Part shown: positions 17,707 through 22,290 of the stretch, in pieces | Numbering within the stretch: the first letter of the stretch is position 1 | How the letters are laid out: each line of letters begins with the position of its first letter | Assembly: GCA_007376425.1 (NCBI GenBank) | Contig: VMGG01000002.1 | Span: forward strand, 1-36,014 | Length of the DNA: 36,014 nt | Direction: 5' to 3' | Source: Parcubacteria group bacterium Gr01-1014_2 | GTDB taxonomy: Bacteria; Patescibacteriota; Minisyncoccia; 2-02-FULL-40-12 | Notes under the pieces: generated by a model | What the model saw: only the letters and a program-made list of their open reading frames with translations | What the model was told of the DNA's origin: nothing | Databases searched by the model: none | Made by a program: the position numbers and the translations under genes

Positions 17707-17800
17707 TGTAAGAATCTATCAATTTATTGTCTTTTTCTCAAGTTTAATATAGCCGTTTTCTGCTTTACGAATGAGAAAAATTAGAAATGATACGATTTTC

Positions 17801-17872
17801 TATAGATTTAACCATTTTTTAGATAGTTTATAGTGTTTATGCATAGATTTTGGTGTATATTGCATAGATTTT
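17801..17872 (+). promoter_or_regulatory. Direct-repeat (iteron-like) operator candidate
   Basis: GCATAGATTTT at 17841-17851 and 17862-17872 (21-bp period); related TATAGATTTA at ~17801 and TAGATAGTTTA at ~17820. Confidence 0.5.
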
Positions 17873-17894
17873 AGAGATATGATAGGATACAAAA

Positions 17895-18614
17895 ATGGAA
17901 GAAAAATTACTCAAAATTAGTGAAGCCGCCGAGATTTTAGGCGTTTCCATAGATACGCTTCGTCGCTGGGATGAAAGCGGAAAGTTACCAGCGATTAAAA
18001 AGGAGGGCGGTACGCATCGTTATTACCGGGAAAAAGATGTAGAGATTTTTGCAAGCGATCTTTTAAAGTTTGCTTCTGATTGGATTCATCAAGGAGCCGA
18101 ATTCCCCGGCGCTTTTTACTGTTCCACGAGTGCCGTGTTTCAGGCAAGATTAGTAAAAATGGAACGCCTGCTTATGGAAAAACCGGGTTTTGAAAAATTA
18201 TACTCTTTGATTGTTTTGGTGGCCGGAGAAATAGGGGACAATTCATTTGCTCACAACTTGGGGAAATGGCCGGATACTCCGGGAATCTTCTTTGGCTACG
18301 ACGTTAAAAAAGGTATTGTTGTACTTGCTGATCGGGGATTGGGCATTTTAGAAACACTGCGCCGCGTTCGTCCGGATTTATCGACGCATGTAAAGGCGGT
18401 AGAAGTTGCTTTCACTGAATTTATCTCCGGGCGGGCGCCGGAAAAGCGCGGCAATGGTCTTAAGTTGGTTCGAGAAGTGGTTCTTGCCCAGCCGATTGAC
18501 CTGTTTTTTACTAGCGGTGACGCGGAAGTACATATGAAGGGGGATGATAAATCTTTTCGGGTTACTCGCGGTCCAAACATAGTACGCGGTTGTATGGCAA
18601 AAATTGAATTTTAA
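17895..18614 (+). CDS. MerR/BldC-like HTH fused to GHKL (HATPase_c) domain
   Basis: N-terminus LKISEAAEILGVSIDTLRRWDESGKLPAIKKEGGTHRYYREKDVE (MerR/excisionase HTH). C-terminal part has N-box-like EIGDNSFAHNLG, ADRGLGI and EKRGNGLKLV boxes. Confidence 0.8.
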   Translation: MEEKLLKISEAAEILGVSIDTLRRWDESGKLPAIKKEGGTHRYYREKDVEIFASDLLKFASDWIHQGAEFPGAFYCSTSAVFQARLVKMERLLMEKPGFEKLYSLIVLVAGEIGDNSFAHNLGKWPDTPGIFFGYDVKKGIVVLADRGLGILETLRRVRPDLSTHVKAVEVAFTEFISGRAPEKRGNGLKLVREVVLAQPIDLFFTSGDAEVHMKGDDKSFRVTRGPNIVRGCMAKIEF

Positions 18615-18633
18615 TGTATTCTAAATAAAACAT

Positions 18634-18924
18634 ATGAAAATAAAATTAGAAAAATTCGGCACAACCCTAATATCCCGTGAATTAGGCAGCGAGGCGTTCA
18701 AGGCGTTTCAGCCCACATTATTTGAACTGCCGCCAAATGAAGAATTGGAAATTGATTTTTCGGGTGTATTAACACTGTCATCTTCATGGGCGGATGAATT
18801 TTTAAGCCCTCTCCTTGAACGGTTAGGCGAGCGGTTAGTATTATTGTCCAGCGATAATCTTTCGGTGCAAGCGACCCTAAAGATTCTACAAGAGGCGAAT
18901 AAGAGGCCTTTCAAATTTAGATGA
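18634..18924 (+). CDS. STAS-like protein (DUF4325 type)
   Basis: LISRELGSEAFKAF...ELEIDFSGVLTLSSSWADEFLSPLLERLGERL resembles STAS-like DUF4325. Family recalled, not searched. Confidence 0.7.
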   Translation: MKIKLEKFGTTLISRELGSEAFKAFQPTLFELPPNEELEIDFSGVLTLSSSWADEFLSPLLERLGERLVLLSSDNLSVQATLKILQEANKRPFKFR

Positions 18925-19124
18925 AAAATGACACAAAAACTAAAATCAAAAAAGAAGTTTACTGGCGGTGCAAAAAATGCGGGGATGAGATTTACTGGAA
19001 TACTCACAAGAAAATGATTATGTGCAAATGCGGAGCCCTCGGAGTCGACGGGTGCGAATTTTATGTGCGGCTTATCGGCAACGAAGCCGATCGGGAAGAA
19101 ATTAAGAAAGAAAGAGAAACATGA
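18921..19124 (+). CDS. Small zinc-ribbon-like protein
   Basis: YWRCKKCGDEIYWNTHKKMIMCKCGALGVDGCEFYVRLIGNEADREEI. CxxC...CxC pairs. Overlaps the previous gene (ATGA). Confidence 0.7.
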   Translation: MKNDTKTKIKKEVYWRCKKCGDEIYWNTHKKMIMCKCGALGVDGCEFYVRLIGNEADREEIKKERET

Positions 19125-19303
19125 AAATAAAAGATTTATTTGCCCTGAGCCATGTCGAAGGGCCAAAAATAAAATCAATACGCCACCCGCTTGGCGTATT
19201 GCGTAGAAATGGGGTTTAATAGAGGGTATGCAGAGGCGTCTGGAAAATCGGCGTAAAATAGAATATAAGGAGTTTTATTGTGTAAAATCTGATATAGTGT
19301 AAT

Positions 19304-19595
19304 CGGAGTAGTGAGAGTTGGTGTTTTTCGGTCTTCGGACTGAAAACAAGGTTGTGCAATAAGTCCGCCATCCGCCTTTGTGCGGTGGATTTGCCCGAAT
19401 AGGGCAGAAGGTGCGGTGAAAAGTAACAGCGGCTTAGCCTACTCCGCCGAAGCAGCTTCGGCTGCGAAGGCCAGGCGGGTGCACCAAGAGTTCAGCCGAG
19501 CATAATTGGAGCAAAATTGAGGGCTGAAAAGCGAAAAAGGATTTTCCTCTCGCTTGCTACTCCCGCAAAGAACTCCCAACACGGGAGTTTTTTGT
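19304..19595 (+). ncRNA. Structured noncoding RNA, identity unknown
   Basis: Extended -10 TGATATAGT (19290-19298) just upstream. Closing stem CGGAGTAG (19304-19311) / CTACTCCCG (19557-19565). Internal UUCG hairpin GTTTTTCGGTC-TTCG-GACTGAAAAC. Terminator AACTCCC-AACAC-GGGAGTT-TTTTT (19571-19594). Confidence 0.6.
19571..19594 (+). terminator. Rho-independent terminator
   Basis: AACTCCCAACACGGGAGTTTTTTG. Confidence 0.8.
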
Positions 19596-19856
19596 TTCCA
19601 AACAATAATGAGTAGTGCGGTGGAGTAAAGTTAGTCCAGGGTCATTCTGGGGGTATGGCTCGTACTATCCTCCCTTGGCCATTACGGCTCACGATAATGC
19701 GCTCATAGCGAGGCTTCGGCAGTTTTATCGTAAAATGAAGGGGGACTTGTCCTGAGGAATTCGAAGGTATTAGTGTAGTTGCGTTCTGACCATCCCGACT
19801 GATAGAGGCATAATAGTATGTTATGGTATATTAAAAATACCCAGTAGATAAATTAT

Positions 19857-20660
19857 ATGGAGAATTTATTAAATAAAATCGAAAGGGTTCCTAAGGACAA
19901 AAAACTGATTGTTTTTGATTTGGATGGGACTCTTGTTGAAACTAAATCAAGCCTAGATGATGAAACGGCAGAATTGTTCGGGCAGCTTTTAGCACAAAAG
20001 AAGGTGGCTGTGATCGGCGGGGCAAGTTTTGAACGGTTCAGAAAAGATTTAGTTGATAGATTAAATGTCTCGCCGGAATTACTTGGCAACCTGTTTTTGT
20101 TTCCCACAACGGCCTCTTCTTTTTATAGATACGACAATAAGTGGATACAGGTATATTCAGAGGAATTTTCAAAAGAGCAAAAAGAAAAAATTATGGATGC
20201 CTTTGAAAAAGCGTTTAAAGAAATCGATTACGTGAGGCCTGAGAAAACTTACGGAGAAATCATAGAAGATAGAGGTTCACAAATTACTTTCTCGGCCTTG
20301 GGTCAAGACGTTGTTGCCGAACTCGGCGAAGAGGGGATTAAACTTAAGAAAAAATGGCGGGATGAAAACCAAGGTTTAAAACTTAAACTGGCTGGAATTT
20401 TGCAAAGGTATCTTCCCGAGTTTGAAGTCAGGGCTGCTGGCTATACTTCAATCGACATAACTCGCAAGGGGATTGATAAAGAATACGCGATTAGGCAAAT
20501 CCAGAAGCACCTTGGCGTTTCAATTGAAGATATGCTCTTTGTCGGTGATGCTCTTTTTGAGAGAGGCAATGACAATGCGGTATTAAGAACTGGAATAATG
20601 TGTTTTGAAATTAAAGAAGTGGAAGACACTAAAGAACTTATCAGATATCTTGTTAAGTAG
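19857..20660 (+). CDS. HAD superfamily hydrolase (HAD-IIB, phosphomannomutase/sucrose-phosphatase-like)
   Basis: Motif I LIVFDLDGTLVETK; motif IV region MLFVGDALFERGNDNAV. Confidence 0.85.
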   Translation: MENLLNKIERVPKDKKLIVFDLDGTLVETKSSLDDETAELFGQLLAQKKVAVIGGASFERFRKDLVDRLNVSPELLGNLFLFPTTASSFYRYDNKWIQVYSEEFSKEQKEKIMDAFEKAFKEIDYVRPEKTYGEIIEDRGSQITFSALGQDVVAELGEEGIKLKKKWRDENQGLKLKLAGILQRYLPEFEVRAAGYTSIDITRKGIDKEYAIRQIQKHLGVSIEDMLFVGDALFERGNDNAVLRTGIMCFEIKEVEDTKELIRYLVK

Positions 20661-20672
20661 ATTAAGTTTGAG

Positions 20673-20712
20673 TTACTATTAATTATATGCGATCGCTTGA
20701 AATTAATAGTAA
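20673..20712. repeat. Palindromic repeat, copy 1 (core GCGATCGC)
   Basis: TTACTATTAATTATATGCGATCGCTTGAAATTAATAGTAA. Confidence 0.8.
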
Positions 20713-20838
20713 AAATAAAAAAGAGCAGATTTTTCATAAGTTAGATTCGGCAACCAGTAAGCTACTCGAAGTAATAGAATTTTTAGTCGGTCTTAATTAC
20801 ATAGCTTTTTCAAAAAAAGCCTAGGAACAAAGTTAAAT

Positions 20839-21222
20839 ATGGATCCTTATTGGGAAGGGCAAAGATTATTTGGTGCTTTAGGCAATCTCGAAAAGGGGAG
20901 CTTTATTAAAAAAGTCGGAAGCGGTAGCTACAAGCTTACTAAAAAGGGGATTAAAAGAATAAATTTTTCTAAATTTTTTAGACTCTCTTTAGATAAAAAG
21001 GAAAAAGACGGTTTATGGCGGGTAGTGATTTTTGATATACCGGAAAAGCAGAAAGTTAAAAGAGATTTATTAAGACAAAAGTTAAAAGAGCTTGATTTTA
21101 AAATGATTCAGAAAAGTGTTTTCGTATCTCCGTATATTTGTGAAAAAGAAATCTTGGAGCTTTGTAAGATCTTGGGTTTAAAGAAAGAAGTTTCTATTTT
21201 GACTACTAAAACTATTAATTAA
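20839..21222 (+). CDS. PaaX-like (Cas2-fold) repressor, possibly truncated or frameshifted at N-terminus
   Basis: wHTH part (GSFIKKVGSGSYKLTKKGIKRI) followed by LWRVVIFDIPEKQKVKRDLLRQKLKELDFKMIQKSVFVSPYICEKEI (PaaX C-terminal/Cas2-like). A short ORF MRSLEINSKNKKEQIFHKLDSATSKLLEVIEFLVGLNYIAFSKKA* (20688-20825) lies upstream in another frame. Confidence 0.65.
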   Translation: MDPYWEGQRLFGALGNLEKGSFIKKVGSGSYKLTKKGIKRINFSKFFRLSLDKKEKDGLWRVVIFDIPEKQKVKRDLLRQKLKELDFKMIQKSVFVSPYICEKEILELCKILGLKKEVSILTTKTIN

Positions 21223-21246
21223 AAGCGATCGCTTGAAATTAATAGT
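21211..21246. repeat. Palindromic repeat, copy 2 (core GCGATCGC)
   Basis: ACTATTAATTAAAAGCGATCGCTTGAAATTAATAGT; overlaps the trpS stop codon. Confidence 0.8.
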
Positions 21247-22240
21247 CTATCTTCATTGCCTTTTTGACTAAATTTATTGTTTCTTCGGCGCGGGCCAGGG
21301 TTTTTTGAGTTCCTTCGGTCAGGATATTCATTACTTCTGCTGATTTTTTTTCTAGTCCTTTTCTTTTTTCGCGGACTGGTTCTAAAAATTTAATCAAATC
21401 TTCGGCGAGCTTGCTTTTAAAAGATGTATAATTTACACTTCCCATTTCTTTTGCCGCTTCTTGCGGGGTAATGGAGTGGATGAGGCCGTAGATTAAAAGA
21501 AGATTTGAAATTTCAGGCCTTTTTTTAGGGTCATATGACGCTGTTGAAAAAGAATCGGTCTTGGCGGTTTTTATTTTTTCTTTTATTTCTTCTGGGCTGT
21601 CTTTTAAAAAGATTGCGTTATTTAAACTTTTGCTCATTTTGGCATTACCGTCCAAACCCATAATCCGCGGCGCTTGTGATAACTTTGCTTGAGGAAGAGG
21701 GAAAATTTGAGTTTTATAGATACGATGAAATTTCTCTGCTATTTCTCTAGTTAGTTCTATCATCGGTAACTGATCTTGGCCTACCGGTACAACATCAGCT
21801 CTTACGATTGTAATATCAGCGGCCTGACTTACTGGATAGCCAAGAAAACCATAAGTCAGCTTTTCACCTTTGGCCCCGAATAAATCTTTTTTCTCGGTAA
21901 TCTCGTCTTTCACCGTCGGATTTCTTTTGAGCGTGTTAATGGTAACTAAATTGGAAAAAAATACTGTCAGCTCGGCAATTTGAGGTATTTTACTTTGAAT
22001 AAAAAAGGTTGTTTTTTGAGGGTCAAGACCGAAGGCAAGATAGTCGAGAGCGACTTCCATAACATTATCGCGAACCTTCTCCGGTTCTTTAAAGTGATCA
22101 GTAAGCGCTTGAACATCGGCAATCATTACAAATGATTCGTATTCATTTTCCAATTCTTTTCTCGAAACAAGCGAACCAAAATAGTGGCCGATATGAAGCG
22201 GTCCGGTTGGGCGGTCGCCAGTTAGAGATACTTTTTTCAT
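21239..22240 (-). CDS. trpS: Tryptophanyl-tRNA synthetase
   Basis: LTGDRPTGPLHIGHYFGSL (HIGH) and KMSKSLNNAIFL (KMSKS). Confidence 0.95.
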   Translation of the reverse strand: MKKVSLTGDRPTGPLHIGHYFGSLVSRKELENEYESFVMIADVQALTDHFKEPEKVRDNVMEVALDYLAFGLDPQKTTFFIQSKIPQIAELTVFFSNLVTINTLKRNPTVKDEITEKKDLFGAKGEKLTYGFLGYPVSQAADITIVRADVVPVGQDQLPMIELTREIAEKFHRIYKTQIFPLPQAKLSQAPRIMGLDGNAKMSKSLNNAIFLKDSPEEIKEKIKTAKTDSFSTASYDPKKRPEISNLLLIYGLIHSITPQEAAKEMGSVNYTSFKSKLAEDLIKFLEPVREKRKGLEKKSAEVMNILTEGTQKTLARAEETINLVKKAMKIDY

Positions 22241-22248
22241 TTTTAACC

Positions 22249-22290
22249 GTAACTATTAGTTAAAAGCGGTCGCTTTTAACTAATAGTTAC
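22249..22290. repeat. Palindromic repeat, copy 3 (core GCGGTCGC)
   Basis: GTAACTATTAGTTAAAAGCGGTCGCTTTTAACTAATAGTTAC, near perfect. Confidence 0.8.

Follow-up and report, generated by a model that had tools for sequence, protein, structure and literature searches.

In CapK-CapS (Chambers et al. 2026, EMBO J), experiments have established that a GHKL protein and a STAS protein together affect DNA binding: the GHKL kinase, activated by ssDNA and DNA damage, phosphorylates a STAS-wHTH repressor at Ser54 after DNA damage (PMC13373217). CapS also controls its own promoter, the reporter was unaffected when the HTH of CapK was deleted, and CapKS mostly precedes immune operons and binds palindromes (PMC13373217). 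A related toxin-antitoxin system, VapKSC, couples a GHKL kinase and its STAS substrate to a toxin (PMC13373217). For the DNA-binding half of the locus described here, the nearest structural reference is the BldC-DNA crystal structure, in which base contacts are made by Lys26 and Arg30, and MerR-activated promoters are characterized by a 19-20 bp spacer (PMC5859096).

We analysed a stretch of 36,014 nucleotides from Parcubacteria group bacterium Gr01-1014_2 (contig VMGG01000002.1, the window), in which a gene for an HTH fused to a GHKL ATPase is followed by genes for a STAS-like and a Zn-ribbon protein (Table 1). Like CapK-CapS, the locus places a predicted HTH-bearing GHKL kinase next to a STAS protein, with an RsbW-like active site and a conserved serine region in a STAS helix, and it is predicted to be autoregulated with its output by DNA binding. 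The domain arrangement is different: CapK is HTH-STAS-GHKL, whereas the putative kinase in the window shows no STAS domain between HTH and GHKL, and the repressor CapS is STAS-wHTH, whereas the STAS protein here has 96 residues and no HTH, the DNA-binding domain being on the kinase; palindromes and immune operons there contrast with direct repeats and no conserved effector operon here. VapKSC shares the GHKL kinase and the small STAS protein, but it includes the PIN toxin VapC, which has no counterpart here, and VapK has no described DNA-binding domain. SpoIIAB/SpoIIAA and RsbW/RsbV share a GHKL protein with an adjacent STAS antagonist, an ExxxNxxxH N-box and a matching STAS fold, whereas no sigma factor partner is visible here and an HTH is covalently attached. 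BldC of Streptomyces (6ama/6amk) resembles the present HTH in sequence, in its recognition helix (K26/R30 corresponding to D20/R24) and in the direct repeats that are its known or, here, its predicted sites (head-to-tail in BldC), but BldC stands alone as a protein of 68 aa and its repeats measure 9 bp, whereas here the HTH is fused to a GHKL domain and the repeats are 20/21 bp apart (~10-11 in one clade). The original prediction knew of no characterized system with exactly this layout; CapK-CapS and VapKSC (PMC13373217, June 2026) now provide comparable systems, and the distinct domain arrangement is the part of that statement which still holds.

Table 1. Features of the locus, with window coordinates and the basis of each assignment
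Feature	Coordinates	Strand	Description and basis
HTH-GHKL gene	17895..18614	+	239 aa; ORF list, Pfam, BldC PDB matches 6ama/6amk, AF2 model, Foldseek, motifs
HTH-GHKL domains			BldC/MerR-type wHTH (~residues 3-54) and GHKL ATPase (~residues 100-239), joined by a linker that contains invariant W63
STAS-like DUF4325 gene	18634..18924	+	96 aa; PF14213, AF2 and Foldseek, adjacency in 79/79 loci, invariant S51-W52
Zn-ribbon gene (DUF7695)	18921..19124	+	Overlaps STAS stop by ATGA; Pfam
Codon 20 (Asp20)	17952..17954	+	Recognition-helix specificity residue, corresponding to BldC Lys26
Operator	17800..17872	+	Four direct repeats; sequence, homologue comparison, covariation with HTH residue 20
Predicted promoter	17860..17888	+	-35, 17-bp spacer, extended -10; homologue comparison
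Transferable unit (operator and two genes)	17817..18924	+	blastn boundaries against many lineages

The HTH-GHKL protein and its STAS neighbour

The ORF list agreed with the three genes originally predicted, in position and in strand. In Pfam searches, residues 5-52 of the 239-aa protein matched PF00376 MerR (E 2.2e-12) and HTH_17 (E 9.5e-12) and nothing was matched past the HTH; the HATPase models gave zero matches on the ATPase half, and no HATPase was among the families most often matched by the 75 aligned homologues. Because these models were silent, the GHKL assignment needed structure. An AlphaFold2 model built with 75 homologues (mean pLDDT 88.6) retrieved the GyrB, topoisomerase II and Hsp90 ATPases from the PDB by Foldseek (probability ~1.0, E ~2e-4). 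Invariant among the 75 homologues were E112xxxN116xxxH120 (N-box), D146xG148xG150 (G1) and R185GN187 (G2), which follow one another as the N, G1 and G2 boxes do in SpoIIAB/RsbW. As modelled, the domain resembles RsbW/SpoIIAB in its fold, its N-box Glu and Asn and its G1/G2 glycines.

A PDB search with the HTH profile ranked BldC first (6ama/6amk, E 6e-6). Against the BldC family NF033787 the HTH scored 28.6 bits, with the curated cut-off at 77, and it is best described, judging by these scores, as a domain related to that family and not a member of it. Nor does the protein fit the description of a classical MerR regulator (19-20 bp promoter spacer, coiled-coil dimer, C-terminal effector domain), as its predicted promoter spacer is 17 bp and its C-terminal half is GHKL. 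One homologous locus (L033) carries a GHKL and STAS pair without HTH, which argues that the HTH is a separable module. MADS defence was considered and rejected, since the mad1 model matches the HTH only as a common BldC-like domain and no MADS genes are adjacent in the window.

The second protein matched PF14213 DUF4325 at E 1.2e-5, its 25.3 bits exceeding the gathering cut-off of 23, and 75 of 76 STAS homologues matched this model at E up to 1. Its AF2 model (pLDDT 97.3) had as its nearest Foldseek matches RsbS, anti-sigma antagonists and STAS domains of stressosomes, with modest statistics (TM 0.62-0.67, E 0.17-0.2); hhalign of the STAS profile with a single RsbS sequence (PDB 6jhk) or an approximate SpoIIAA sequence was uninformative. 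Both of the folds that had been proposed were thus found, that is, a BldC/MerR HTH fused to a GHKL ATPase and a STAS protein beside it, and the ATPase does carry a DNA-binding domain in place of a sigma factor partner.

Ser51 is the candidate phosphosite of the STAS protein. It is invariant in 76 STAS proteins, together with W52, and starts the helix after the central strand; residue 50 is Ser in the window and Pro in most homologues. VapS (9z7o, E 0.37) and CapS (E 1.5) were among the weak best PDB matches of the STAS profile, and ungapped alignment to CapS S54 and VapS S48 placed the serines at S51 or adjacent to it, with a register uncertain by one residue. Phosphorylation of Ser51 is close to an even call, leaning slightly to the negative. 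Patescibacteria also encode apparently uncharacterized single-chain wHTH-HATPase_c_2-DUF4325 proteins of ~340-350 aa (L175, L176, L178, L181, L182, L202), which combine the same three functions and have a motif G-T-x-x-[IV]-S-R in common with the pair, but which use another HTH type, have Ala/Gly at the S51 position and are much diverged (profile-profile comparisons with this family were weak: probability 7, E 0.005 and probability 11, E 0.003). Because of the Ala/Gly in these fused relatives, phosphotransfer would not be general to DUF4325. In addition, three loci (L177, L179, L180) have GHKL and DUF4325 gene pairs without HTH that resemble VapK-VapS; together, the single-chain proteins and the HTH-less pairs show that these domains have been repeatedly combined in Patescibacteria.

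Conservation of the gene pair was surveyed in GTDB species genomes, which yielded 249 relatives, the best 80 of which came from records named as Patescibacteria/CPR lineages or bacterial bins; in a profile search of phylum genomes, the protein was present in 47 of 380. The STAS gene lies directly 3' of the HTH-GHKL gene in all 79 loci with a continuing contig (the window counted; the contigs of L066 and L085 end inside the gap between the two genes and are not among the 79). This adjacency is far above chance, and it extends to other genomes the HTH-GHKL and DUF4325 neighbourhood proposed from the window. The outcomes named beforehand as refuting the proposal, a missing GHKL or STAS fold or an unconserved neighbourhood, were thus looked for and did not occur. 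The Zn-ribbon protein (PF24749 DUF7695, E 1.9e-10), originally listed as a component of the system, has no such record: besides the window, it occurs full-length at the same position in only one of ~80 loci (L059), which rules it out as a core part, and it is an accessory gene, probably co-transcribed with the pair. No family was shared among the neighbouring genes, either adjacent or 3.5 kb away, and the downstream genes vary between loci. In the window, the pair is followed by the Zn-ribbon gene, ~730 bp without a convincing gene, and then a HAD phosphatase. The ~730-bp region (19125-19856) contains short GC-rich inverted repeats and gave no Rfam match at the gathering threshold. Elsewhere in the window, 23S rRNA matches at 1-109 and 1363-1514, with ~1.25 kb between them, suggest a 23S insertion or intron.

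Operator repeats and the residue-20 code

Upstream of the HTH-GHKL gene, two distal repeat copies at 17800 (ctATAGATTT) and 17820 (tagATAGTTT) are followed by two perfect copies at 17840 and 17861, both TGCATAGATTTT, with spacings of 20, 20 and 21 bp. Across loci, the operator consensus consists of direct repeats TGNNTAG[A/T]TT upstream of the start codon, with at least two copies in 73 of 80 loci and 20 or 21 bp in 108 of 121 spacings; four loci lacking the TGNNTAG pattern have TGCATAGGGTT or a near variant instead. With repeats and spacing conserved in homologues, the repeats noticed earlier at 17800-17875 are genuine. In three loci of a diverged clade (L135, L138, L140), the repeats are ~10-11 bp apart and lie past the -10 box, ahead of the start codon.

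The predicted promoter has its -35 TTGCAT (17860-17865) inside the proximal repeat, followed after a 17-bp spacer by an extended -10 TGaTAGGAT (TAGGAT 17883-17888). Six bases separate the -10 from the ATG, so that transcription would start at or near the ATG and the predicted transcript would be leaderless. Among the 107 best-scoring homologue promoters, a 17-bp spacer and an extended -10 were each found in 83. The repeats mostly overlap the -35 box of this near-leaderless predicted promoter, and by clade they lie over the -35, within the spacer or downstream of the -10. Such varied positions over the promoter core would fit steric repression better than activation.

Residue 20 of the HTH aligns to position 29 of the 6ama chain (VDPKTVTRW segment), which is BldC Lys26, and R24, corresponding to BldC Arg30, is invariant among homologues. 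In the alignment, residue 20 predicts bases 3-4 of the repeat in 72 of 72 classifiable loci (Asp with CA, 42; Asn with xG, 20; Met/Gln with TA, 10), and column 20 holds 100% of the operator-class information, compared with 61% for the next best protein column. A wider automatic count that included genomes from a different search gave D-CA 47, N-xG 25, M-TA 10 and Q-TA 3, with three near-misses (one D with CC, one N with GA, one Q with AA) and zero swaps between the three classes; loci outside the alignment sample with D, N, M or Q agreed with the code. Beyond these four residues no clear code was seen (Ala went with CA, Ser with either AG or CA, and Thr with a mixture).

On a tree of the GHKL half alone, we counted 20 changes at residue 20 and 21 operator-class changes. 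Independent pairs on supported branches all agreed in direction and none was opposite, at 3-5 pairs per class, a number with which a sign test is unable to reach 0.05. Because only ~150 bp separate the operator from codon 20, a single recombination event may account for some of the joint changes; in-place cases, among them L101 (Asn, GG/AG, with Met/TA sisters), L070 and L081, argue for true co-evolution of the residue and the operator. Two genomes with two copies (L050/L087 and L071/L089) each have one Asn/xG and one Asp/CA copy, and because these codes differ, the copies should not cross-regulate. The homologue operators and this covariation support the idea, put forward from the window itself, that the repeats are the binding site of the HTH. 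Binding with autoregulation is strongly supported on these comparative grounds; the HTH-GHKL protein is highly likely to bind its own repeats, and there is a good chance that such binding represses its own promoter.

Horizontal movement of the operator and gene pair

The HTH-GHKL protein of the window is 89% and 90% identical to those of G333 and G062, with RecA at 65% and 67%, whereas in comparison with G009, a genome from the window's order, RecA (71%) is more similar than HTH-GHKL (58%). The pair is absent from the same-genus genome G001; there and in G002, of the same family, the slot between ychF and the next conserved genes is occupied by a phosphomannomutase-like gene together with a TrpRS unlike that of the window. 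In the window, a lineage-specific block (17707-22290) between ychF and the RNase J gene contains the pair, the HAD phosphatase, a PaaX-like ORF and another TrpRS.

DNA similarity between lineages (blastn) typically begins at -71 to -96, at the distal repeats, and ends at most ~20 bases from the STAS stop; in a few close genome pairs it reaches further on one side. Since these boundaries enclose both, operator and genes travel together. By these comparisons, the ~1.1-kb unit moves horizontally among Patescibacteria, with a patchy distribution and no conserved effector. A phage or plasmid origin was rejected, as no relative was found in viral contigs and the phage and plasmid matches were of HTH length only.

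A predicted autoregulated switch and its alternatives

Taking these results together, we consider it reasonably likely that the locus is an autoregulated kinase-STAS switch, complete in itself and spread by horizontal transfer. Through its BldC-like HTH, one protomer would occupy each of the tandem direct repeats in front of the operon, and the bound protein would cover the -35 box and repress its own promoter. The fused RsbW/SpoIIAB-like GHKL domain would bind ATP and the bare STAS protein from the neighbouring gene, and binding of the two proteins to each other is quite probable. In favour of the switch as a whole are the conserved adjacency, the predicted folds and the single-chain proteins of Patescibacteria, in which the three domains are physically joined. 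STAS binding, with or without phosphorylation of Ser51, may then change how the protein oligomerizes or how tightly it holds DNA, which would set the level of both proteins. The arrangement would be that of CapK-CapS inverted, with the DNA-binding domain on the kinase and not on the STAS substrate.

In a variant compatible with this switch, the STAS protein would be a stoichiometric binding partner of the GHKL domain, with no phosphotransfer. The uncertain phosphosite register, the Pro at position 50 in most homologues and the Ala that fused relatives have in place of S51 are in its favour, but the N-box, G1 and G2 residues are all kept, S51 is invariant in 76 sequences, and STAS partners are phosphorylated by their kinases in the CapK and SpoIIAB/RsbW systems (PMC13373217); we regard this variant as possible, with the weight of evidence somewhat on the other side.

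A rival reading is a toxin-antitoxin-like or immune module, in which GHKL and STAS would be effector and inhibitor and the HTH would merely keep the operon quiet, in the manner of an antitoxin. The two-gene size, the autoregulation, the self as sole target, the horizontal transfer and the diversified operator specificity would all suit such a module, and the related VapKSC is itself a toxin-antitoxin system (PMC13373217). However, neither protein is similar to a known toxin, nuclease or defence protein beyond the HTH, and no PIN/VapC or other conserved third gene was found around the pair in the surveyed loci. A link to restriction-modification or defence islands was also rejected, since PADLOC and Pfam profiles were alike near and far from the pair, with restriction-modification neighbours about equally frequent in both; enrichment near defence genes is therefore not claimed. 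This explanation seems unlikely.

The target search bears on the switch and on a further alternative alike. The window's protein had been proposed to control transcription directly; in a matrix scan of its own genome (546,582 bases, ~0.55 Mb), the only operator arrays lay at its own promoter, as did the two top-scoring single sites. With no second array in 0.55 Mb, the detectable target is the operon itself, which speaks against broad transcriptional control and for autoregulation, although a switch with itself as sole target also weighs against the switch reading. The alternative is a wider regulator whose true targets are single or degenerate sites invisible to an array search. Single-site scoring gave 84 hits, compared with 88 in the reversed-sequence control, so that it cannot tell weak targets from background, and in one locus (L109) a second operator array precedes a lone STAS gene. 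Against a wider regulator, both of the best single sites are in the protein's own promoter, the others do not rise above the control, and pairs of repeats, sought in 95 relatives and in 59 carrier genomes, occur almost exclusively just upstream of HTH-GHKL homologues, arrays elsewhere being almost absent in the 59 carriers; we judge it improbable. Of the extra operator matches, one (G069:C32) was judged to be chance, lying inside a CDS, as were two in low-complexity repeats (G159:C130, G087:C29), and one (G079:C61) is near a contig end. In L109 (12054-12390), the lone STAS (DUF4325) gene behind the second array has no accompanying HTH-GHKL gene, and its product has AE instead of DE after the SPSW motif.

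MerR-family proteins are frequently activators, and the proximal repeat lies over a poor -35 beside an extended -10, a class II activator position from which the bound protein might recruit RNA polymerase to the weak TTGCAT promoter; such positive autoregulation is the least probable of the alternatives, because the predicted spacer is 17 bp and not 19-20 bp, which rules out MerR-type activation by spacer untwisting, and because other clades with a near-consensus TTGACA have their repeats in the spacer or past the -10.

Returning to the autoregulated switch, its boldest form would be a transposase-free, cargo-free 1.1-kb unit that spreads in Patescibacteria and controls itself alone, its code diversified so that co-resident copies avoid cross-regulation. 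We hold this form to be a long shot; if true, a self-only mobile switch would represent a new class among minimal mobile modules, with either a regulatory or an addiction role.

Collectively, the locus would reverse the logic of partner switching, in that a predicted STAS-responsive kinase itself bears the DNA-binding domain, and this suggests a possible role for the CapK HTH, left unknown by the CapK study. It also offers a DNA specificity code, of one residue and three letters, by which the preference of a BldC-type recognition helix can be read from genomes. For Patescibacteria, in which no published case of a comparable regulator with a defined operator was found in openly licensed PMC text, it supplies a regulator with a defined, predicted operator, and if the module is an effector-free mobile switch, it raises the question of what maintains it in such small genomes.
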